10,483 nucleotides of DNA from NCBI GenBank assembly GCA_903879995.1, contig CAIRNW010000392.1:1-10483 (forward strand), in the 5' to 3' direction. The stretch is from an uncultured Bacteroidota bacterium (GTDB lineage Bacteria; Bacteroidota; Bacteroidia; Chitinophagales; Chitinophagaceae). The position numbers were made by a program, and so were the translations under genes. Each line of letters starts with the position of its first letter. Positions within the stretch are counted from its first letter, which is position 1. The notes under the pieces are model-generated. The model had not been told where the DNA came from. It saw nothing but the letters and a program-made list of their open reading frames with translations, and searched no databases. Of this stretch, positions 1 through 10,483 are shown in pieces.

Positions 1-1509
1 GGCTGATTGATTTTTGAGCTTTTCTTGAAGGGACTCCATATTCCCAATGCGTGCAACATCCTCGAGTAGATTTTCGATGGTATATTTCAAGTTTACTCCC
101 CACTTATCGTATTGTGGGTGGATAATTTCCAACCATTCGAGATGATACTGCTTCTTTGGAATAAGCTCCCATTTCAACTGATGGCAGATATCAAATAGCT
201 CGGTAGATTTTTCCTTGTTCTCCTTGAAGTCAGGGAATATAGCATCTCTAAGGCAAATTAAACCATTTTCTGTTTCTACCAGGGCTTGCTTAAGTAAGAA
301 TCTCCGCAAAGGCAGTTGTATTGCTTTTTGGTACCAATCCAGGTCAATATAATCCTTGGTGTTTTCAGGAAGTGAGGATAGTGCGAGATAATGGAGATTT
401 TTGAAGCCTTGGTTAATGGCAGATTGTATGAAGGTCTCTATTAAGGTCAACGATCCCTGGAGCAACGATTTGTTATGTTTTACATTTTCGTTTCGCGTAT
501 TTTTTAAATATATCCCGTCCCTTGCTTCAGTTGGCATAAAAATATGGCTGTTCAAAACAACAGGCAAATGAAAGTTACCTGTACCTACCAATGGAAAATC
601 CTTGAAAATCTTAGGTAGCCCTGCTCCACTTTCTCGTATCGAAATTTCTGGATTCGAGTCCAAACGCCTTGCCAGGGTTATCTTGCCATCGGAAATGGCT
701 GCTACATAAATATTTTCTATGGTTCCAGTGCGTTCGTCTTCTCTCAAAAATGGATAGACGGTTATATTGTCAAACGGATCTGGCCTACCCCTGGTAAAGC
801 GTATGTCTGAGTCTGTGGTATGGTCAATAATCCGCATGGATTGGAGTTTAGGCACGAATATCATCGTGTAGGGCAAGGCAGTTTCAAGATCTGCGATACC
901 GGTGCGGGCGGTATTTAGTCCTCTTTCATCTAAAGGGTATTCAAATATTGTATCAAAATCCGTTTTTTTTCTGGTTGACTGGTAATTTTCTTGCAGTGGA
1001 AAAATTTCATAGTTGTCCAATTCAAGGATATGGGAAAGGGCATTCCCAAGTAACTGCTTCATTTCTTCTGAGGTGCTTGCCCTGCGGTCTATCGCTAACT
1101 CAAATCGCTGGTATTTTTTTATTTCCGATTGTACAATGCCTTTTACATGAATCAATCTGGACAGCATGTGAGTCGTCATAAACCCGGTACCAAATTTTCC
1201 GGTCGTAGTGGCTTCGATATCTGAGTCATCTTTTGAGGATACTTGCTGAATCAGGGAGGTGAGGTGTTGTATCTCAAAAGGATCGGCATTGTGCCGAAAA
1301 ATAAGGAGCTCTTGGCTCAGTTCAATTTCAATGGAAACCCCATCGAATACGTTATCAACGTCTTTTGCATTCTGCATCAGCTCCCAAATCCAGCGCCTGA
1401 GTTCATAATCCGGGGCATTTTCGACCTTCTCGATGCCTTGGATGATTTTATCGCTGATGGTTTTGATATACCCTTCTGTAATGAGGTTTTGTACGACTTT
1501 ACTTGCCAT
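1..1509 (-). CDS. GHKL (Hsp90/sacsin-like) ATPase, 3' end beyond window
   Basis: An open frame of 503 codons runs from the ATG at 1509-1507 to the left edge without a stop. An in-frame TAA at 1515-1513 rules out an earlier start. Near the N-terminus I see the ATP-binding motifs of the GHKL fold. The N-box is WELMQNAKD, with Glu43, Asn47 and Asp50. A G1-like box is HNADPF (73-78), followed by SSKDD and the glycine-rich lid motif TGKFGTGF (103-110). The order and spacing match the sacsin/Hsp90-like group often annotated only as 'ATP-binding protein'. The G1 box is unusual: His73 stands where Asp is canonical, and Ala75 replaces the expected Gly. The rest of the visible protein has no motif I recognise. 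It is the last visible gene of the operon, 49 bases after the ABC-type ATPase. A conformational-switch or sensor role is inference. The GHKL call is strong, the biological role unknown. Confidence 0.85.
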   Translation of the reverse strand, partial: MASKVVQNLITEGYIKTISDKIIQGIEKVENAPDYELRRWIWELMQNAKDVDNVFDGVSIEIELSQELLIFRHNADPFEIQHLTSLIQQVSSKDDSDIEATTTGKFGTGFMTTHMLSRLIHVKGIVQSEIKKYQRFELAIDRRASTSEEMKQLLGNALSHILELDNYEIFPLQENYQSTRKKTDFDTIFEYPLDERGLNTARTGIADLETALPYTMIFVPKLQSMRIIDHTTDSDIRFTRGRPDPFDNITVYPFLREDERTGTIENIYVAAISDGKITLARRLDSNPEISIRESGAGLPKIFKDFPLVGTGNFHLPVVLNSHIFMPTEARDGIYLKNTRNENVKHNKSLLQGSLTLIETFIQSAINQGFKNLHYLALSSLPENTKDYIDLDWYQKAIQLPLRRFLLKQALVETENGLICLRDAIFPDFKENKEKSTELFDICHQLKWELIPKKQYHLEWLEIIHPQYDKWGVNLKYTIENLLEDVARIGNMESLQEKLKNQSA

Positions 1510-1558
1510 ATATTATGTTGATATACAATACATAAAATATAATTGACTTAAAAAAGGG
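1510..1558 (-). other. AT-rich spacer between the two ATPase genes
   Basis: This 49-base, very AT-rich gap is the longest spacer inside the operon; the other junctions are a 4-base overlap and 8 bases. I see no clear hairpin, no Shine-Dalgarno sequence and no convincing TAnnTTTG promoter box. Read-through transcription is therefore the simplest reading, although a weak internal promoter cannot be excluded by eye. Confidence 0.5.
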
Positions 1559-3058
1559 CTATACACCCAGCTCGCTTTTCAGCCGCTTTAAGGCCTTGAT
1601 AGTCCTTTTTATTTCGGTACTGTGCTCGCTTTTGTTGGTATCGTTATGGTTCAAGGGGTTTAAGACGAGTGGTAAAAGTTGGTCAATCTCCTGCTTGATT
1701 TTCGAGGTTAATCTCAATGCGTCACTGTGGTTTTTTGTCTTGTCCCAAAACTCACTGGCCTTGAGCTGGCTTTGGTCTACCACAAATCTCACGGTCACTT
1801 TTCCAAAACAAAACTGCTTCAGGATGGCTTCGAACGCTGAGCGCAGGTAAACGCCTGCTGCCTTGTTATCGCCCGAATTGAAATAATTTTCTGCAATCTG
1901 AATGTAGTAGTCCAAATGGGCATTGTTGCCTGTCCCTTTTATTTCTTTTACGACCGGGATGGAAAAACCTGCTGCGGAACGTCCGGCATAAATCTCAAAG
2001 CATTTCCAATCCTGGTTGTGGTTCAAGTAGTTTGTTCTGACGAACTCGTACCAGGGCTTGTCGTAAGTCGTGATAAATATTTGGTAACCTGGGAAATCAG
2101 TTTTTAGAATCTCTAATAGGGGCAGGCGGTTCGAAATATCGAGGCCGATAAAAATATCGTCCAGAAAAAGTACTTTACAGGGAAGGCGCTGGACGTGCCG
2201 CTTAACCATGCCCAAATAAATAGAAATCGCAATGGCCGATAGCCGGGCTTCGTTCAAAAAAATATGGGGCTTGTCTATTTCCTTCCCTAAGTATTGGATG
2301 CCCACTTTTACATGGTTTCTTTCTATGTCTTTGTAATTACCGCTCGGCTGGGCCTGGGTGTAGCGAAGCGACAACACAATGTTATGTCCAAATTTATCGA
2401 GGATAGGCTGTGCATACTTCAGAATATTTTCGATACTATTTTCGTCGAACAGTTTCTTGAAGGCCGAATTAAAAGCAGAAATGGCGCTATTTACCTCTGC
2501 CTCCTTTTGCCTGATATTAAAAGCCCGGTCGGTATCTTTTTTCAAGGAGGTCTCCACTGCCTCCCAGAGTTGGCCTAATTCTTTGTCTCCAGTGATGGCT
2601 ACACTTTTAAAATGCTTCAGTACGCCTTTTACGAGCAAGTCAAAAAGGTCTATCTCGTTGTTTTTTTTGATATAGTGTATGCCCAGCAGGTGCTTATACG
2701 TGAGAAAACTCTTGAGCTTGACAGCATCCCGGATACTGGTATCCCCGGGGGCATAGGTGTTACGGTTGGTTTTAGAGACGGTATATTCTTTGTCCACAGG
2801 CGACCCGTCTTTGTCGGGGTTGAACGTGACCTTGATGTAGCCTTGGCCTCTTTTACCCGGATCTAAAAAAATGTTTTCGGTTTCGTCGTAGTTCAACTCC
2901 TCCGTGGAAGACTGAAAAAAATCCTTCAGTGCGTAGTAAAAGGAACTTTTACCACTGCCGTTTTCTCCGTAGATGAATAGGTTTTTACCGTCCACCTGGA
3001 ACACATGGGTCCCGTAGAAGGCTTTGTAATCCTTTATGTCTATTTTTTTTATCCGCAT
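1559..3058 (-). CDS. RecF/SMC-like ABC-type ATPase with helical C-terminal domain
   Basis: A 499-residue protein of the AAA/ABC ATPase class found in RecF, SMC and many defence loci. The N-terminus shows the typical strand (MRIKKIDIKDYKAF) and a Walker A motif GENGSGKSS (31-39, Lys37). A signature-like segment LNEARLSAIA begins about residue 268, and Walker B is VLFLDDIFIGLD with Asp300/Asp301 and a D-loop. The switch position reads TTYD, with Tyr332 where His is usual in ABC ATPases. The middle (about 120-260) is predicted helical but too short for a long SMC coiled coil. After about residue 380 comes a separate helical region with a polar NPLNHND motif (His471), broadly HEPN-like; I cannot assign it a family. 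The ATG at 3058-3056 lies 8 bases after the methyltransferase stop, so the two are almost certainly co-transcribed. A DNA-end or structure sensor, or a regulator of the nuclease partners, is inference. Confidence 0.9.
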   Translation of the reverse strand: MRIKKIDIKDYKAFYGTHVFQVDGKNLFIYGENGSGKSSFYYALKDFFQSSTEELNYDETENIFLDPGKRGQGYIKVTFNPDKDGSPVDKEYTVSKTNRNTYAPGDTSIRDAVKLKSFLTYKHLLGIHYIKKNNEIDLFDLLVKGVLKHFKSVAITGDKELGQLWEAVETSLKKDTDRAFNIRQKEAEVNSAISAFNSAFKKLFDENSIENILKYAQPILDKFGHNIVLSLRYTQAQPSGNYKDIERNHVKVGIQYLGKEIDKPHIFLNEARLSAIAISIYLGMVKRHVQRLPCKVLFLDDIFIGLDISNRLPLLEILKTDFPGYQIFITTYDKPWYEFVRTNYLNHNQDWKCFEIYAGRSAAGFSIPVVKEIKGTGNNAHLDYYIQIAENYFNSGDNKAAGVYLRSAFEAILKQFCFGKVTVRFVVDQSQLKASEFWDKTKNHSDALRLTSKIKQEIDQLLPLVLNPLNHNDTNKSEHSTEIKRTIKALKRLKSELGV

Positions 3059-3066
3059 AGCAGGCT

Positions 3067-6000
3067 CTATTTCAAGGCTTCCTTTATGATTCGCACCTCC
3101 TCTATACTGTCCAGGGTCTCAAGGGCAGTCCGAACCGGGTGGTTGGGGTCATACAAGCGCTCGAACTCGCCCTGGATGATGGCGAGCTTCTCGGCATCGC
3201 TCATCTCATCGGTGATGGGCTTTAAATCGCCCAGGTACTTTAGGATTTCTTTGCCGGCTGATTTTAGTTCGGTGGGGAAGACTATTTCATAAACTATCCC
3301 ATCTATAACAGATTCAAAAAAGGATACAATAGACTGTTCTATAGATTTATCCTTGAAAATTCGTTTGTAATATCCTAAGTAATCTACTAAAATTTCGATT
3401 TTAGGTTTAGAGTTACCAGTTGGTTCAGGTATTGGAAGATTTTCTAAGAATATCTTTTTATACCGATATTTCCCCACTAGTTCACCTCCAGCATAGAAAA
3501 TCCTATAAAAAACTGTAAGTAATTCAGAATTTAACATCGCAACTAGCCATTTTAAATGCTCACCTATTATAAAAGAGGCGGTTACTTCGGGATAATATTG
3601 ATTATCATCATAATAAAATTGTGGTTCTGATACTATTTCTGAAAAAATAATCTTATTTTTTTCAATCTCATTTAGAAAAGCACAATTTCTTAAGTTAGTC
3701 CAATGATCTCCACTATCTGCTCTTGATCTAATCTCATTTGGAAATGAGCTTAAATATTCATACAAATTTGGAAAATCTTCGCGTACGTAAATTCTATGAA
3801 TACCTCTTTTTTTGTCACCGTTGTGGGTATTTATTAAATAATAATTATGGAAATTACAGTAATACTTTCTAATGTCCCTACCCCTCAAAATAGGTTTTAT
3901 TATTTGTTCTAATTTCGGTTCGATACTAATAAGGTTATTTCTAGATTCCTCATTAATTATAAATGCGTCATTATATCCAGTTAAAACACCACGATATAAC
4001 TCAACATTCCAGTTTTTTAATTTAACTGCTTTTCTCTCTAATCTAATCTTTATATTAATTAATTTTGGGTCAGAAAGTGCCCACACCTCTTCAGTGAAAT
4101 AATCAAGACTGATTACATTATCCCTAAAATATTGATCAAGTGAGTTCGTCTTCGCATTTGAAAATTGGCATCCCTTAAACTCATTATTATATCTATTTTT
4201 TTGAAAAAGTAATATATTACTGTGAACGATAGCAGTTGAGAAAATCATCACTTGACCAAAATCAAAAAGTAATTTTGGATTTGTCTTTGTCAAGAAAAAT
4301 TTTCGAGTTGAAGTGCCATAATTAGACCTCAGCCATTGATTTGAAGTAATAAAGCATAAATGCCCACCTTCTCTTAAAACCCTATTTCCATTTTCATAAA
4401 AACACTCATAAATATCTCCTCTAGAAGAAAAAGTTTCAAATTTCATTTTTAATAAACTCTTTTTCAAATCTTTATCAAGCTTTGAAATCGGCACATACGG
4501 CGGATTCCCAATCACCACATCGAATCCCCCCTTTTCTCGCCACACTTCCGAGAAAAAGAGTTTAAAGTCGAAGTCGATAGGATAGCCTGCAAACTCTTCG
4601 GCGGAATCCAGGAGTTCGCGGATTTTAGTATTGATTTCCTGTCGCAGGGCTTTCTTCTTCGCTTCATCGGTCAGGTTGTAAAATTGCTCCTTCAGACGTT
4701 CCAGTTCGGCTTCCACCTGCAAGTTGCGCATAGCGCTTTCTGGGAGCCCGATCAATGAGTTTCCACACACAATTTTATAATCCAGGTTGGGCAGGGTTTC
4801 GATGGGGTCCAGGGCCTCTTCGTCCACTACCAGGGAGAGCCACAAGCGCAGGCGGGCGATATCAATGGCGCTGGGGTCAATGTCCACCCCATAGATGCTT
4901 TCTTGAATAATATGCCGCTTCAGGCGATAGAGATAGCGGCTTTCGCTTAGGTTGTCCTGTGGCTGGAAACCGAAGCTCTTTAGTTTTTGATCCAGGTAGC
5001 CTTTGCTCAGGTGCGGTTTGAGTACCAGCATAGCGTTGACCAGTTCGTGCAGCAGGCCCAGCGGGAAGGCGCCGGAGCCGATGGCCGGGTCGCAAATACG
5101 GATATCACCAAGCGCTTTATCTATTTGGTCAGCGTTCTGGCGTATGCGTTCTGGGAGTTGGTATTGGTAGGTTTTCGATTCGCCTTTAGCAGCAACCCGC
5201 TCATCATTTTCCAGGGTTAAATGCCCAACGCGGACGAAGGTTTCGATGTCCTGTTTAGGAACCAGGATAGGATCGCCGTGTTGTATTTCGATTTTCAGGT
5301 TCCCTTTTTTATCGGTACTACCGCCAAATAAGCTGGTTTGGTCTGTGCCAATCTCCTGATAACTGACGGGGTTCCTGTTCAGCGAATTGTCGAGGTAGTG
5401 GATCAGGCTTTCCTGGCACATGTAGTGTACGATTTCCCGAGGTGTGTAGAAAGCGCCTTTGCTTTTGCGTTCGGTGACATCGAGCATGTTTTCGAACACT
5501 TTGCCCAACATTTCGGGGTCAACGGCTACCTCCTTGTCCAGGGGTTCATCTTCTTTGATGGTGAAGTTATAGCGGTCGAAGACGTCCAGTACCCCTGTGC
5601 CCAGGTCGCCGGACTTGTTTTTGTCGTCGTTGCTAAACAGGCGGTCGGGGATGGAGATTTCGGCATTTTCCCAATCGTAGCTGGCTTCAAAGAGCCCACC
5701 GTTTAGAAAAGGGATGCGGCAATTGAAGCGTGCATAATAAGCATCTATATTGTCCCGCTCTTTCGCAAGTGCTTCATAGAATAGGTATTGGAGTTTATCT
5801 TTATAGAAATTGACGCCCTCGGCCTGTGCCTTTTCAAACAGATGCCGCATAAAGTGTTTGCTGCCTGTTCCCCAGTGTTTATGTTGGGCGACGCCCAGCC
5901 AGCCTTTTTTCTGCAGGAAGTAGAGGAAGACGATTTGGCCGAGCAGTTTTTTGGTAAAGCGGGCATTGTCTATCCCGGCTTGAAGCAGGGCAGGTTTAAT

Positions 6001-6663
6001 ATGTGGAGTATTTTCGATGTATTCGTATAGTTTGACATACAGATCTTTGTATTGGTTAAAGAACTCGTCCGTAACCTTTTCCACGCTAAATGCCGCTTCT
6101 AAGGCTTCTACCGTAGGGTTATTGGCAATATTTTGGAGCAGGGGAAGCAGTTGGTTTTTCGCGGTATGGGCTTTTTCGTACTTGCCCACCAGGAAGGAGT
6201 AGCGTTTAGCGGGGGTAAATTCTTTCTTGGTTTTTACTTTGCCTTTTTCTTCGCCCAGTTCAGAGCGGTATTCCAGTTTGATGAAAGAGAAACGCCAGTC
6301 TGCACCTTCGTCTTGCTTGCTGTAAAAAGCTACCAAAGCATAATCTTTTTCAAACTTGCTCAGGTGTTTGATGACAAAATTTCGGAGTGCCGTTCTTGCC
6401 CGCTCCAATTTATTCACGCTCTTTACTTCTACAATCAACACGTCCAAAGCTTCGCCATCAGGGTCAACGTATTTACCAATGCGTTTGTAGGTGTTGATGT
6501 GTTCTTTGTAGTCGTCCCAAATCAGGTTGCCGCTATATCGGTTGTCCTTTTCTTCAAAGTCATTCAGCAGGTTTTTGGCAAAAATAGTGAACTGCTCCTC
6601 GCTGAAAGCATTGTTGAAAGTCTTTTCTATGAGTTCTTGTGCGGTTTTCTTGTCCATGGTCAT
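3067..6663 (-). CDS. Eco57I/PglX-like N6-adenine DNA methyltransferase with putative N-terminal nuclease
   Basis: A 1198-residue protein with the layout of large Eco57I-family (type IIG, BREX PglX-like) enzymes. The N-terminus contains Asp74 and the E79-V-K81 triad in LDVLIVEVK, matching a PD-(D/E)XK nuclease core; this is plausible but rests on a short motif. Next come the GAFYTPREIV segment (403-412), SAM-binding motif I DPAIGSGAF (525-533), GVDIDP (592-597) and catalytic NPPY (720-723). NPPY indicates methylation of the exocyclic amino group, here most likely N6-adenine. The C-terminal third is the target-recognition region, with LTGYNDAFII and LRGRDIRKYY (Asp930) as in TaqI/Eco57I-type specificity domains. 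The ATG at 6663 overlaps the helicase TGA (ATGA), suggesting coupled translation; a second in-frame ATG at codon 3 is possible. No separate specificity subunit is present, so recognition probably lies here. About 406 codons after NPPY are strongly AT-rich compared with the rest. Confidence 0.93.
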   Translation of the reverse strand: MTMDKKTAQELIEKTFNNAFSEEQFTIFAKNLLNDFEEKDNRYSGNLIWDDYKEHINTYKRIGKYVDPDGEALDVLIVEVKSVNKLERARTALRNFVIKHLSKFEKDYALVAFYSKQDEGADWRFSFIKLEYRSELGEEKGKVKTKKEFTPAKRYSFLVGKYEKAHTAKNQLLPLLQNIANNPTVEALEAAFSVEKVTDEFFNQYKDLYVKLYEYIENTPHIKPALLQAGIDNARFTKKLLGQIVFLYFLQKKGWLGVAQHKHWGTGSKHFMRHLFEKAQAEGVNFYKDKLQYLFYEALAKERDNIDAYYARFNCRIPFLNGGLFEASYDWENAEISIPDRLFSNDDKNKSGDLGTGVLDVFDRYNFTIKEDEPLDKEVAVDPEMLGKVFENMLDVTERKSKGAFYTPREIVHYMCQESLIHYLDNSLNRNPVSYQEIGTDQTSLFGGSTDKKGNLKIEIQHGDPILVPKQDIETFVRVGHLTLENDERVAAKGESKTYQYQLPERIRQNADQIDKALGDIRICDPAIGSGAFPLGLLHELVNAMLVLKPHLSKGYLDQKLKSFGFQPQDNLSESRYLYRLKRHIIQESIYGVDIDPSAIDIARLRLWLSLVVDEEALDPIETLPNLDYKIVCGNSLIGLPESAMRNLQVEAELERLKEQFYNLTDEAKKKALRQEINTKIRELLDSAEEFAGYPIDFDFKLFFSEVWREKGGFDVVIGNPPYVPISKLDKDLKKSLLKMKFETFSSRGDIYECFYENGNRVLREGGHLCFITSNQWLRSNYGTSTRKFFLTKTNPKLLFDFGQVMIFSTAIVHSNILLFQKNRYNNEFKGCQFSNAKTNSLDQYFRDNVISLDYFTEEVWALSDPKLINIKIRLERKAVKLKNWNVELYRGVLTGYNDAFIINEESRNNLISIEPKLEQIIKPILRGRDIRKYYCNFHNYYLINTHNGDKKRGIHRIYVREDFPNLYEYLSSFPNEIRSRADSGDHWTNLRNCAFLNEIEKNKIIFSEIVSEPQFYYDDNQYYPEVTASFIIGEHLKWLVAMLNSELLTVFYRIFYAGGELVGKYRYKKIFLENLPIPEPTGNSKPKIEILVDYLGYYKRIFKDKSIEQSIVSFFESVIDGIVYEIVFPTELKSAGKEILKYLGDLKPITDEMSDAEKLAIIQGEFERLYDPNHPVRTALETLDSIEEVRIIKEALK
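3280..4500 (-). other. AT-rich target-recognition cassette within the methyltransferase gene
   Basis: Hand counts on 60-base lines give about 25% GC at 3301-3360, 30% at 3961-4020, 30% at 4141-4200 and 28% at 4441-4500. Outside, I count 52% at 4501-4560, 53% at 4921-4980 and 55% at 3181-3240. The upper edge coincides with the NPPY codons (4506-4495). The lower edge falls about 70 codons before the stop. The block (about residues 722-1127) contains the predicted DNA-recognition region. The frame is intact and the protein joins smoothly, so this looks like replacement by homologous recombination at conserved flanks, not decay. Confidence 0.75.
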
Positions 6664-9600
6664 TTGGTTAAATACCCGGAGAGGATGACTTCGCGTTTTT
6701 GGAACAACGGGGTGGCCTGGGGTCCGAGTATGTTTATTTGGGGGATATGCTTTTCCAGGATGTACAATATTTGAAGCGGATCCAAGGTTTTTTCCAATTC
6801 CTTCTTGATGGATTGGGCTGTCTTTTTGGCGATAGTACCTTGTGCGAGCATTTCTTTTACGCCATTTATAAATTCCTCATTGGTATCGGTAAACCCTTTA
6901 TAGTGTTTAAAATTTTTGTCTTTGAGTCTGTTTTCGATATATTTTGTGTTGGACTGGCCGCCGCCTTTGGTACCTTCTTCTTCGGAGCTGGTGTCCATTT
7001 CAAATTGTTTTTTATTGGCATCCAGCATATTGTAATATGTTTCGGGCAAATGGGCGCGTCGGGTATCAGGTGGGCACTCGAGGTTGTTGACGGCGTCGAA
7101 GAAGGTTATTTCGCGGGAGTCCCCATTTTGGTACAGGTAGAACTTTTTTAGTCTGCCGATGCGGAAGAAGGTGATGAGCTGTTCGGTTTCCACCTTTTCG
7201 TTTTGGTGCCCAGAGCGGGCTTTTTTGGGGAGGTGTTTAATTTTCTCAAACAAATCCGGTTGCTGGTCGCGGATATTCCGCATCAGTTCCAGGTACTTCA
7301 ACTCTGAATCGCCTTCGGCATCTTCACCGGTATAAGCCGATTTGCGGTTCAGGGTGTCAAATAACTCCTGGCTTCCGAACTCTTCCCCATCGCTCAAGTA
7401 TTTAGCATCTTCGCCGAGGATATCATGGAAGATTTGGATTTTATTCGTGATGTTCACTTCGAGGCCCAGGTGGGCATCCGACTGGGTGGTAGGGAAGAAG
7501 TTGAAGATATGGACTTTATCGGAGGCGCTGCCCAGGCGGTTTACGCGCCCGGCCCTTTGGAGTACGCGGATTGGGTTCCAGGGCAGGTCATAATTGACCA
7601 GAACGTTGGAGAGATGCAGGTTGATCCCTTCGGACAAGATATCGGTTGCGATCAGGATTTTTATTTCGTCGCTTCGCTCTTTGGATTTGGGGTCGAAATT
7701 AGCGGTAATGATATCCCGTGCCACAGCGTGTTTCGAGACCAGGGTATGGTTGGTATGCCTTGCCCCGGCGCTGGAGTAGAACATTACCTTTCCGGGGTAT
7801 TCCCGGTGGAGGCGTTCGTACAGGTAGTCACCCGTTTCTTTGGACTCGGTGAAGACGACCAGTCGGTTGTTGTTGAGGGCGGGCACTGCTCTCAGTTGCT
7901 GGACAAAGGTTTCCAGTTTGGGGTCGGTATCCACGGTTTGCCAGAGTGTTTGAATTCGGTTGAGGATACCCAAATCGAACGATAAATTGGCTATAAACTC
8001 TTTTTTGAAGTCGTCGGAACTGTATTTTTGAGCTTGTTCATCCTGTACCAAGGCTTCCAGACGGTTGATATCGTCGCTTTCGATCAGGTCGTACACATCC
8101 ACTTTCTTGCTGATATAGATGGTACCGTCGAGGTACATTTTAATAAACTTCTCGTAGGAACCAATAAAACGTTGGACACTTTGGCGAAATGCATGAAAGC
8201 TACTCTCCAGGCGTTTCACCAGGATACTTTTCATAAACCCACCGATGTTCCGCTGCTGTTGCCGGTCGAACTCTCTCAAGGGTTTATTTCCGACATAATA
8301 GAGGAGAGGGGTATAGCGGGCATAATTAAATTCAGACAGCAGTTTTATGGTTTCGTTGAAAATTTGCTCAAGCTGGTCTTCGTACTGATAAACTATTTTT
8401 TGTGGGTTGTCCACTTCCGGGAAGACCAAACCCTGTACTTTCATATCCTCGAGGTAATAGGTCATTACGTCCTTTCTGGTCCGTCGAACCATCACGTAGC
8501 GCAATATTTTATTGCGGATATCGTCTGAAATGTCCTTGATGAGTTTTTTGTATTCCGGATCGGTTTTATCGAGTTTGGCCAACCTGGTTCTGAAGGAGGA
8601 GAAATATTTTTCCAGGTTTGGGATCCCGGGGATGGTTGCATTTTTAGGGGCCTGGAACAGTTTCAGTTGGGCGAAAATATCGTCTACGGTGTTGTTGAGA
8701 GGGGTTGCGGTGACCAGGATAACCTTTTTGCCGCGGCAGATATTCAGTAAATTGGCATACGCAAGCGTATTGTCGTTTCGGAATCGGTGTGCTTCGTCAA
8801 CGACGACATAATCATAGCGTGCAGTTCCTTTTTGGAGTAGGTGGTCGAGTTTGCCGAGGGATTCCACCTCGAAGCCACGTATGCCAAAATCGAACAGGGA
8901 ATCCTTCCAGTACTCCTTCAAGACGGGCGGACAGACGACCAGGGTTCTTCCTTGTAATTGTTGCAGCAACAGGGCCGTGATGAACGTTTTTCCAAGCCCG
9001 ACGACATCTGCCAAAAAAACACCGTTATAGGTTTCCAGGATTTTTTTGGCTTGCGTGGCTGCCTGGCTTTGATAGGTTAGCTTCATAAAGCCCTCGGGCA
9101 GGAAAGGCTCAAATTCGGCTGCTAGGTTGATATCCTCTTCTAAATATTCGTATATCAGCTTCAGGTACAGCTCATAGGGCAAGATCTGGTCGTTTAGCCA
9201 GGTTTTGTTTTGGATAGTATCCACAAAATCCTCGGATATATCGGCCGATTCGTTCCAAAGCGCATTAAATTGATCTTCGGCAAAGCGCACGTCCGCTCTT
9301 TTCCGCAATTCCACGTTAAACTCCCGGTTCGCTATAAGACCTGACTCCGAAAAATTACTGGAACCGGTGATGACAAAGCCGTAGTCCCTATCACCGGGTT
9401 TAAACCTGCCGATATAGACCTTTGCATGGATATTCTGAGAGGGAAAGGCTCGAATTTCCATTTTCTTTCCATTGCCATAAGTAGCCTCATCCAAATTGGA
9501 TTCCGTACATTCCATCGTCAAGAATTCGATGAACTTGCGCACCCCGATTTCGAGGTTTCTATCGTTTTCCTCGGCGTTTTCGATTTCCTCTTTTAGATGG

Positions 9601-9902
9601 GCCTGGTATTTTTTTTTGGTGCGTTGGTGCGATTCGAAGTCCAAAGAGCCGTTTCGCTGCTGAAGCTGGATCAGATTATAGGCTTCGCGGTCCAGGTTTA
9701 AACCCACCAGGATTCGAATTTTCCCCAATGGTTCCAGGGCATCGTACAGTTGATAAAAACCACTTGCCCTGAAATATCCCACCAAGACATCGAAATGCAC
9801 CGTGTCCCTTAACATGGCCTTGAAGCGGCCGAGCAGGGTTTGCCCCTCTTCGTTGGTGAAGAAGGTCAAGTCGGTATGTTCAGGTTGGTTTTTTATCGTC
9901 AT
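6660..9902 (-). CDS. PLD-nuclease/SNF2-type helicase fusion
   Basis: A 1080-residue two-part protein. Residues about 1-215 form a phospholipase-D-like domain. It has VLVGYFRASGF near residue 40, then a single HKD half-site with His159 and Lys161 (NIHAKVYIG) followed by GSSN (180-183). Single-HKD proteins normally pair as dimers to make one nuclease site. A complete superfamily-2/SNF2 motor follows. It comprises motif I ADVVGLGKT (298-306, Lys305), DEAH box (369-372), motif III TATPLNN (398-404), a motif IV-like VVFTE (about 682-686), motif V TDILSEG (753-759) and motif VI QRAGRVNRLG (782-791). About 280 residues lie between the two RecA lobes, and about 280 residues without recognised motifs follow motif VI. 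The ATG at 9902-9900 is 39 bases below a palindrome and candidate promoter, making this the first gene of the operon. The role is likely ATP-driven movement on DNA coupled to cleavage; no catalytic residue I can check is missing. Confidence 0.95.
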   Translation of the reverse strand: MTIKNQPEHTDLTFFTNEEGQTLLGRFKAMLRDTVHFDVLVGYFRASGFYQLYDALEPLGKIRILVGLNLDREAYNLIQLQQRNGSLDFESHQRTKKKYQAHLKEEIENAEENDRNLEIGVRKFIEFLTMECTESNLDEATYGNGKKMEIRAFPSQNIHAKVYIGRFKPGDRDYGFVITGSSNFSESGLIANREFNVELRKRADVRFAEDQFNALWNESADISEDFVDTIQNKTWLNDQILPYELYLKLIYEYLEEDINLAAEFEPFLPEGFMKLTYQSQAATQAKKILETYNGVFLADVVGLGKTFITALLLQQLQGRTLVVCPPVLKEYWKDSLFDFGIRGFEVESLGKLDHLLQKGTARYDYVVVDEAHRFRNDNTLAYANLLNICRGKKVILVTATPLNNTVDDIFAQLKLFQAPKNATIPGIPNLEKYFSSFRTRLAKLDKTDPEYKKLIKDISDDIRNKILRYVMVRRTRKDVMTYYLEDMKVQGLVFPEVDNPQKIVYQYEDQLEQIFNETIKLLSEFNYARYTPLLYYVGNKPLREFDRQQQRNIGGFMKSILVKRLESSFHAFRQSVQRFIGSYEKFIKMYLDGTIYISKKVDVYDLIESDDINRLEALVQDEQAQKYSSDDFKKEFIANLSFDLGILNRIQTLWQTVDTDPKLETFVQQLRAVPALNNNRLVVFTESKETGDYLYERLHREYPGKVMFYSSAGARHTNHTLVSKHAVARDIITANFDPKSKERSDEIKILIATDILSEGINLHLSNVLVNYDLPWNPIRVLQRAGRVNRLGSASDKVHIFNFFPTTQSDAHLGLEVNITNKIQIFHDILGEDAKYLSDGEEFGSQELFDTLNRKSAYTGEDAEGDSELKYLELMRNIRDQQPDLFEKIKHLPKKARSGHQNEKVETEQLITFFRIGRLKKFYLYQNGDSREITFFDAVNNLECPPDTRRAHLPETYYNMLDANKKQFEMDTSSEEEGTKGGGQSNTKYIENRLKDKNFKHYKGFTDTNEEFINGVKEMLAQGTIAKKTAQSIKKELEKTLDPLQILYILEKHIPQINILGPQATPLFQKREVILSGYLTK

Positions 9903-9940
9903 TCAACAGTACTTTAAAAATTGCCAAGGTTGTAGCGATT

Positions 9941-9969
9941 GTGGGGGAGTGTGCGCATACTTTCCCCAC
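9941..9969. promoter_or_regulatory. Imperfect 29-base palindrome, candidate operator or leader hairpin
   Basis: The arms GTGGGG (9941-9946) and CCCCAC (9964-9969) are perfect complements. The centre is the self-complementary TGCGCA (9952-9957). Allowing one gap and a few mismatches, the whole element reads nearly the same on both strands. It sits directly downstream of the candidate -7 box and upstream of the helicase start, where a repressor would block transcription. As RNA it could also form a hairpin in the 5' leader. No T-run follows on either strand, so it is not a standard terminator. Confidence 0.5.
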
Positions 9970-9976
9970 ATCCCTG

Positions 9977-10004
9977 CAAATTTAGCGATTAATAAGCTAC
10001 CAAA
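9977..10004 (-). promoter_or_regulatory. Candidate Bacteroidota-type promoter for the operon
   Basis: On the minus strand, TTTG (10004-10001), a 16-base spacer and TAAATTTG (9984-9977) resemble the known Bacteroidota promoter pattern: a TTG-type -33 element and a TAnnTTTG -7 element. The spacer is about one base shorter than the usual range. Transcription would start close to 9970, at the edge of the palindrome, giving a leader of about 65-70 bases. It is a motif match only. Confidence 0.45.
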
Positions 10005-10156
10005 GGGACTTGGTACCATAAAAAATATTAGGGTGGCTGCGTGCTTAAGAGGGAAGACTCGTTTATTAAAAGTGCCACTCTTTTTATGTTCCTGGCCTCA
10101 AGCAAATAGTCCATTTATCCCCTGCTATAGTTCCATTGGTAGAGAGGGACGTACTA

Positions 10157-10483
10157 CTAGCCTAATGCAATCCTCAACTTCTTTATACATTCGACAGTGC
10201 TTCCATTAATTCTTTCGTTTGTACCTAAAAAATGAACAAAATTTTTGGTATCCAAAAGTGCAATAGTTTCATCTAAAGCACCCATTAAAACATCTTTTTG
10301 CGCTAATTTTGAAGAAAGACGAAGGCTGCCAATAGTTTTATCAAAAATAAAAATGGATTTTTTATCTTTATATGTATACTCCTCATGATCAATTTCAAGT
10401 GGATCGATTACGTTCTGCATTGAAAACATTTCCTTGATTAACTTTGCTATGATTTTGACCTGAACATCTGGAGAGTCAAGAGA
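10157..10483 (-). CDS. Hypothetical protein, C-terminal part only
   Basis: The frame is open from the right edge to a TAG at 10159-10157, giving 108 visible codons. An ATG at 10429-10427 exists, but the frame continues upstream of it without a stop to the window edge, so the true start is probably outside. The visible part has a short helix-like stretch (KIIAKLIKEMF), then alternating hydrophobic residues (KKSIFIFDKT) and a helical tail. I do not recognise the family and see no catalytic motif, signal peptide or membrane segment. Its sequence is clearly AT-richer than the helicase and methyltransferase N-terminal coding regions. It is separated from the operon by 254 bases, so it is probably a different transcription unit. 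Confidence 0.6.
   Translation of the reverse strand, partial: SLDSPDVQVKIIAKLIKEMFSMQNVIDPLEIDHEEYTYKDKKSIFIFDKTIGSLRLSSKLAQKDVLMGALDETIALLDTKNFVHFLGTNERINGSTVECIKKLRIALG

Follow-up and report, generated by a model that had tools for sequence, protein, structure and literature searches.

A PLD-SNF2 helicase, an Eco57I-type methyltransferase and a RecF-like ATPase as a likely restriction-like unit beside a Tiamat homologue in Chitinophagaceae DNA

Restriction-like systems that combine a helicase, a methyltransferase and an ATPase are already on record. One of them is BR type 2, which comprises, in the part of its published description available to us, an HKD-SNF2 helicase with the HKD at its N-terminus, an N6-methyltransferase and a DUF499 ATPase (PMC12839542; Hma also PMC8565338). 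PrrC and RloC are presented, in the accessible part of another source, as ABC-HEPN anticodon nucleases that occur beside restriction-modification (R-M) systems (PMC3710099). The locus analysed here comes from an uncultured Bacteroidota bacterium of the Chitinophagaceae (assembly GCA_903879995.1, contig CAIRNW010000392.1). The whole contig of 10,483 nucleotides, one of 410 in the assembly, is referred to as the window (G000:C392), and the left flank therefore cannot be read in this assembly. Open reading frame (ORF) calls confirmed four minus-strand genes where an earlier note on this DNA had placed them. The domain matches likewise agree with its naming of a PLD-SNF2 helicase (gene 1, 1080 amino acids, 6660..9902), an Eco57I/PglX-like methyltransferase (gene 2, 1198 amino acids, 3067..6663), a RecF-like ATPase (gene 3, 499 amino acids, 1559..3058) and a GHKL ATPase (gene 4, 1..1509), tightly packed on one strand. 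The helicase and methyltransferase ORFs overlap by 4 bases, 8 bases separate the methyltransferase from the RecF-like ATPase gene, and the gap between the two ATPase genes is 49 bases with a guanine-cytosine (GC) content of 18%.

The reading favoured here is that the helicase, the methyltransferase and the RecF-like ATPase (the triad) likely form one R-M-like system whose third slot is exchangeable, and that gene 4, a TmtA homologue, is separate. Judged from families and neighbourhoods, the triad probably serves anti-viral defence. The evidence comes from a survey of 395 genomes of the phylum, in which ATPase matches (E ≤ 0.001) were found in 28, own genome included. Neighbourhoods were read for 15 of the 27 others, the remaining 12 holding local matches of at most 110 residues. 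In 14 of these 15 loci, the methyltransferase is the immediate neighbour of the ATPase or of a truncated or broken copy of it; L047, the only locus that departs from this, is a fragment. Ten of the 15 stretches also include the helicase, and in all 10 the ATPase is downstream and the order is the same. As for the five loci without a helicase, the contig stops at or in the methyltransferase in L043, L046 and L052, L054 retains no more than the final part of the methyltransferase, and both genes are missing from L047; two of these five genomes have a helicase together with the start of a methyltransferase at the edge of a different contig (L096, L097). All three genes are present in L053 (genome G334, helicase E = 1.9e-34), a more distant triad. 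The triad also stands in this order at three of four named loci, namely those of Dysgonomonas sp. ZJ279, Geofilum rubicundum and a Bacteroidetes metagenome-assembled genome, whose helicases are 75–76% identical to that of the window; the remaining one is cut off by the contig end behind the helicase.

The same association is seen from the side of the helicase. Matches to it (E ≤ 0.001) are present in 334 of the 395 genomes, mostly partial, e.g., to the shared motor. A strong-helicase set was therefore defined at E < 1e-80, comprising 33 non-self genomes of which all loci were fetched. A methyltransferase is nearby on the same strand in 32 of the 33, with helicase identity going down to about 30%. 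Only G184 departs from this: its helicase is a stub of 405 residues interrupted by two stops, and no methyltransferase accompanies it. In L085 the gene order is reversed with the two genes 3.6 kilobases (kb) apart.

Several points weigh against counting the ATPase as a constant member. An ATPase of the window's type, counted at a 60-bit threshold that very divergent copies may escape, occurs in 11 of the 33 strong-helicase genomes (two split over contigs, one remnant, one broken). It was not found at this threshold in the other 22, three of which end at the methyltransferase, and the ATPase may therefore be accessory. This would suit an alternative in which the helicase and the methyltransferase are the whole system and the ATPase gene, which would act on its own in defence or as an abortive gene, rides beside it. 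The ATPase of L009 is only 41% identical to that of the window, compared with 75% for the helicase, as if it had been swapped alone, and a similar place is occupied by other genes at other loci. This alternative is a serious one, but we regard it as unlikely, since the ATPase is nearly always found with the methyltransferase (14 of the 15 loci read) and keeps its downstream position in the ten one-stretch triads.

The other occupants of the slot were scanned in nine loci, with one accessory gene per locus, chosen by eye, lying between or beside the helicase-methyltransferase pair. A YhcG PD-(D/E)XK nuclease was found in four (L049, L077, L078 and L081) and DUF3800 in two (L070 and L072); single loci had NYN (L071), KAP (L073) and an AAA_16/NACHT-like ATPase (L069). 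L049 holds YhcG and the ATPase together.

The helicase is a predicted ATP-driven DNA translocase and nuclease, i.e., the restriction subunit. Its Pfam domains are PLDc_2, SNF2-rel_dom and Helicase_C, and its top PADLOC match is 'HKD+Snf2' (PDLC01075, E = 3.7e-54; all PADLOC results refer to the best 25 matches per protein). The HKD spans residues 159–183, Walker A 302–306, DEAH 369–372 and motif VI 782–789. Among the matches listed, the window's own cluster included, HxK...GSxN, GLGKT (Walker A), DEAH and QRAGRVNR (motif VI) were kept in all 120 helicases. The motifs are also retained in six distant orthologues, with the HKD spacing matched more loosely and the exact DEAH absent in two. An identity of gene 1 with Pbe, which is reportedly associated with DNA phosphorothioation (PMC6459918), was considered and rejected: PADLOC PbeA covers the PLD half (E = 8.8e-12), and the Pfam matches of the window include no dnd-type domain. 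Another helicase of the superfamily (1052 amino acids) is encoded in the same genome on contig C9 at 9606–12764 (L137), 31% identical to gene 1 over residues 275–826, and adjoins ORFs of 644 and 1012 residues that by eye resemble a type III restriction pair.

The methyltransferase is the predicted modification and specificity subunit, an Eco57I/TaqI_C adenine methyltransferase of type IIG-like length. Pfam returned Eco57I (E = 2.8e-40) and TaqI_C, and the PADLOC profile REase_MTase_IIG (PDLC03596) matched residues 3–1099 with E = 8.4e-259. In an alignment of 64 rows, made of the window protein and 63 of the 120 listed homologues, NPP (residues 720–722) is present in all 64 and Y723 in 63. The region of residues 721–1120 (3304..4503, minus strand) behaves as a variable cassette. 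Its GC content is 29%, compared with 48% for residues 1–720 and 51% for residues 1121–1198; its identity to four relatives is 12–27%, compared with 63–85% before and 72–82% after it; and its column conservation is 0.38–0.55. This pattern is as expected for an exchanged target-recognition region.

The nearly full-length type IIG match would also fit a stand-alone type IIG restriction enzyme, with the helicase serving some other function. No nuclease domain is among the Pfam matches of the methyltransferase. A candidate nuclease ExK in its N-terminal domain is present as E79 in 53 and K81 in 56 of the 64 rows and is lost in distant orthologues. This leaves the N-terminal domain without explanation, a cost to our own reading, and gene 2 was rejected as an independent nuclease because the ExK is not conserved; the HKD domain of the helicase is for the same reason the likelier cutter. 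That 32 of 33 genomes have the helicase close to the methyltransferase, and that the two genes overlap in the window, likewise makes a stand-alone type IIG enzyme improbable. Beyond the phylum, a conjugative plasmid of Nostoc (NZ_AP025734.1, L139) carries in its stretch 7988–10434 a gene for a 35% identical ATPase that overlaps a TaqI_C methyltransferase piece by 4 bases. The association of ATPase and methyltransferase thus extends to cyanobacteria; no helicase is annotated in that stretch.

The product of gene 3 is a RecF/SMC-like ABC ATPase by its Pfam matches (SMC_N, E = 1.5e-13, and AAA_23), and 1832 homologues at E ≤ 1e-3 were obtained among 8000 candidates scored. The PADLOC profile Mad3 (MADS) covers its ATPase core with E = 2.6e-14; a literature search on MADS brought up only unrelated papers. 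The C-terminal domain, residues 378–499 (1559..1927, minus strand), carries R406-x3-E410 ... N467-x3-H471 and can be called HEPN-like by motif alone. All four residues are invariant in 129 of 129 aligned domains, and the motif is kept in eight distant orthologues that are 19–31% identical in the C-terminal 122 residues. These residues mark an unexplained conserved site in this protein. R-x3-E is found in eight of eight PrrC-type (AAA_13) proteins of the phylum and jointly with N-x3-H in six, and a loose joint R-E-N-H pattern, matched without a register check, in five of 11 DUF4145 stretches, one of them mis-cut. The pattern thus appears to be shared with PrrC-type and some HEPN/DUF4145 proteins, a likeness at the level of motifs.

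From this likeness, it may be suggested that the ATPase is a PrrC-like ABC-HEPN ribonuclease guard, which would be inactive within the restriction complex and freed when a phage blocks restriction. The slot would be filled in other lineages by other backup effectors, i.e., the YhcG nuclease, NYN, DUF3800, KAP and the NACHT-like ATPase. This joint proposal is tentative, and we think it more likely wrong than right; a number of results count against it. When PrrC-type C-termini were shuffled, 2–6% of trials still gave the R...E-N...H pattern, so the pattern in one protein is weak and the invariance is the evidence. Pfam DUF4145 matched the C-terminal domain of the window ATPase below the cut-off (E = 0.014). 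It reached E ≤ 1 in only two of the eight distant C-termini, again below the cut-off (L042, E = 0.0011; L045, E = 0.041), and was absent from the best 25 of 27 families in full-length scans of 77 ATPase homologues. The domain also lacks the arginine that HEPN proteins usually carry before N-x3-H. Profile alignments with hhalign were not significant either, with p = 0.33 against PrrC-type domains (reversed control 0.44) and p = 0.028 against DUF4145 (reversed control 0.16); the DUF4145 set had 11 stretches, one mis-cut to 41 residues, and 10 rows were used. PrrC-type and DUF4145 domains are both counted as HEPN in the literature. They were likewise not significantly linked to each other (p = 0.29), which indicates that the hhalign comparison is without power.

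How a system of this kind could work follows in part from the families. The methyltransferase would N6-methylate host DNA at a site determined by its C-terminal recognition region, which is exchangeable. Unmarked foreign DNA would engage the PLD-SNF2 protein, of which the SNF2 motor would move along the DNA and the single HKD half-site would cut it, probably after two copies meet. Self-marking by the methyltransferase and attack on unmarked DNA by the helicase are what these families would predict. The ATPase in the exchangeable slot may act as a sensor, or else as an RNase-like backup effector that the other two proteins keep silent.

The fourth gene encodes the N-terminal 503 residues of a protein that ends at the contig edge. 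It matched PADLOC TmtA with E = 3.6e-125 over profile positions 13–492 of 1063, the remainder lying beyond the contig. The NCBIfam sacsin N-terminal ATP-binding model gave 71 bits (cut-off 50), while Pfam HATPase_c reached only E = 0.007. TmtA is the protein of Tiamat, a single-gene system; nothing was found in a literature search on TmtA/GHKL. That gene 4 lies on the same strand after so short a gap would suit a true four-gene system with the TmtA GHKL ATPase as fourth subunit, and GHKL ATPases fused to HEPN domains have been reported in R-M neighbourhoods, in the accessible part of the source (PMC3710099). However, TmtA was not found in any stretch that carries one of the other 32 pairs of helicase and methyltransferase, nor at the three named triad loci. 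It matched in just 12 of the 395 genomes, own included; among the 33 strong-helicase genomes, a match is limited to G099, where it lies on a different contig, and G184. Seven of the 11 other TmtA loci were read: neither a methyltransferase nor the triad ATPase was found, and the only helicase is the stub of G184, at a distance of about 7 kb. In the three loci scanned (L089, L090 and L091), the next gene is instead Schlafen/AlbA_2. A four-gene system, already disfavoured, is in our view very improbable. Most likely, gene 4 is a separate, already catalogued defence gene that neighbours the triad in the same island.

The earlier note had suggested that the four genes may be one system with both ATPases as accessory sensors, and had looked to homologous neighbourhoods for all four genes together. 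Genes 1 to 3 do co-occur, their order recurs and the RecF-like ATPase behaves as a part of the system, but the GHKL gene stands apart. In the PADLOC search that it raised, the helicase and the methyltransferase matched the 'HKD+Snf2' and type IIG profiles, and the GHKL gene matched TmtA. As an observation on the TmtA homologues themselves, those of L089, L090 and L091 are about 850 amino acids long and the Schlafen/AlbA_2 copy in L090 has a TIR domain; TmtA with such a gene is possibly a two-gene Tiamat variant.

Upstream of the helicase, the intergenic stretch 9903..10156 is the presumed site of the operon promoter, by position only. A promoter scan of the window gave 17 promoters compared with a mean of 18.5 expected from shuffles, no better than chance. 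The intergenic stretch is followed by the C-terminal 108 residues of a partial ORF (10157..10483), for which Pfam gave nothing below E = 0.05. Neither an Rfam match nor a tRNA was found in scans of the window. The assembly is estimated to be 96.7% complete with 4.15% contamination, and given the latter, it is possible that the contig was wrongly placed in it. A search of one genome of the same genus and 12 of the same family gave no ATPase match. Taken with the 75–76% identical helicases in three named Bacteroidota, these gaps in the kin make the spread of the triad look patchy and tentatively suggest horizontal transfer.

If the favoured reading is right, a common and apparently unnamed restriction-like pair gains a definition, and it becomes readily testable whether guard modules in restriction systems are swappable. 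With the invariant R-E-N-H set of the third protein, a guess becomes a matter of four point mutants. What looked like an operon of four genes also proves to be a unit of three beside a known single gene, which matters for the automatic calling of systems. No publication naming the helicase-methyltransferase-ATPase triad was found in the open-licence literature.

Set beside known systems, the triad shares features with several. The suggestion in the earlier note of a restriction-like unit outside BREX, DISARM and HsdS-type systems held up, as the tested features of each were lacking, and membership of BREX, DISARM and Hma was rejected on PglZ/PglX, DrmB/DrmD and DUF499, respectively. In BREX, PglX has an Eco57I methyltransferase domain like that of gene 2, but the NCBIfam PglX model gave only 69.2 bits (cut-off 500), and PglZ had no match in the 410 contigs of the own genome. 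No HsdS domain is among the Pfam matches of the window proteins; unlike in type I systems, the specificity region lies within the methyltransferase chain. As in a type IIG enzyme, a single long chain combines the methyltransferase of gene 2 with its recognition domain, but no conserved nuclease active site was found in that chain.

Class 1 DISARM (DrmD-DrmMI) resembles the triad in its SNF2 helicase, large adenine methyltransferase and PLD nuclease function. The PLD nuclease of DISARM is a separate protein, DrmC, whereas the PLD is fused to the helicase in the window. DUF1998/MZB, which marks DrmB, had no Pfam match in the five window proteins. DrmA was represented only by a match to the helicase core of gene 1 (E = 3e-19, residues 662–809, best 25 of 38 matches), and the window helicase scored 155 bits with the NCBIfam DrmD model, short of the cut-off of 610. 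The DISARM in the available part of a metaepigenome study is ordinary DISARM and of no help here. In the same genome, contig C261 (L136) carries an SNF2 helicase and a large methyltransferase at 40–2889 and 2903–6751, with E = 2e-115 for DrmD and 4.9e-91 for DrmMI; this pair is a candidate separate class 1 DISARM and a useful internal control. Two small contigs of that genome hold its single DUF499 match, an ATPase at 5576–8098 of C262 (L135), and its only MZB match, a 1720-residue MZB/DUF1998 protein at 1527–6689 of C235 (L138). Such genes could point to the window as a degenerate or partial DISARM, BREX or Hma locus with its core genes elsewhere in the genome. We consider this the least probable of the alternatives: the C261 genes score far higher than those of the window (E = 1.9e-36 and 1.1e-32 with the DrmD and DrmMI profiles), which indicates a different locus, PglZ has no match in the genome, and no such genes are apparent, by eye, alongside the triads of relatives. 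The core genes of a named system, which the earlier note allowed for off the left edge, were likewise not apparent by eye among the ORFs listed for L007 and L008, where the triad lies inside 23 kb.

Gene 3 resembles PrrC/RloC in its N-terminal ABC ATPase, its small C-terminal domain with R-x3-E ... N-x3-H and its restriction-like neighbourhood. The catalytic residues of PrrC are Arg-Glu-His. The whole pattern spans 42–46 residues in four PrrC-type proteins, whereas the gap from E410 to N467 alone is 57, and profile similarity between the C-terminal domains was not significant in the powerless test described above. Gene 4 is like Tiamat in its TmtA profile match, but it stops at residue 503 and is a neighbour of the triad. 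The individual parts are already known, the helicase and the methyltransferase each having a single PADLOC profile. Hma and BR type 2 share with the triad the logic of ATPase, methyltransferase and helicase, and with gene 1 the HKD nuclease fused to an SNF2 helicase. They differ in that gene 3 is a RecF/SMC-like ABC protein with no DUF499 AAA+ match, and the HmaA profile covers only part of the window helicase core (E = 7.2e-28, residues 522–803). As far as the available part of its description goes, BR type 2 appears to be the nearest described logic to that of the triad.

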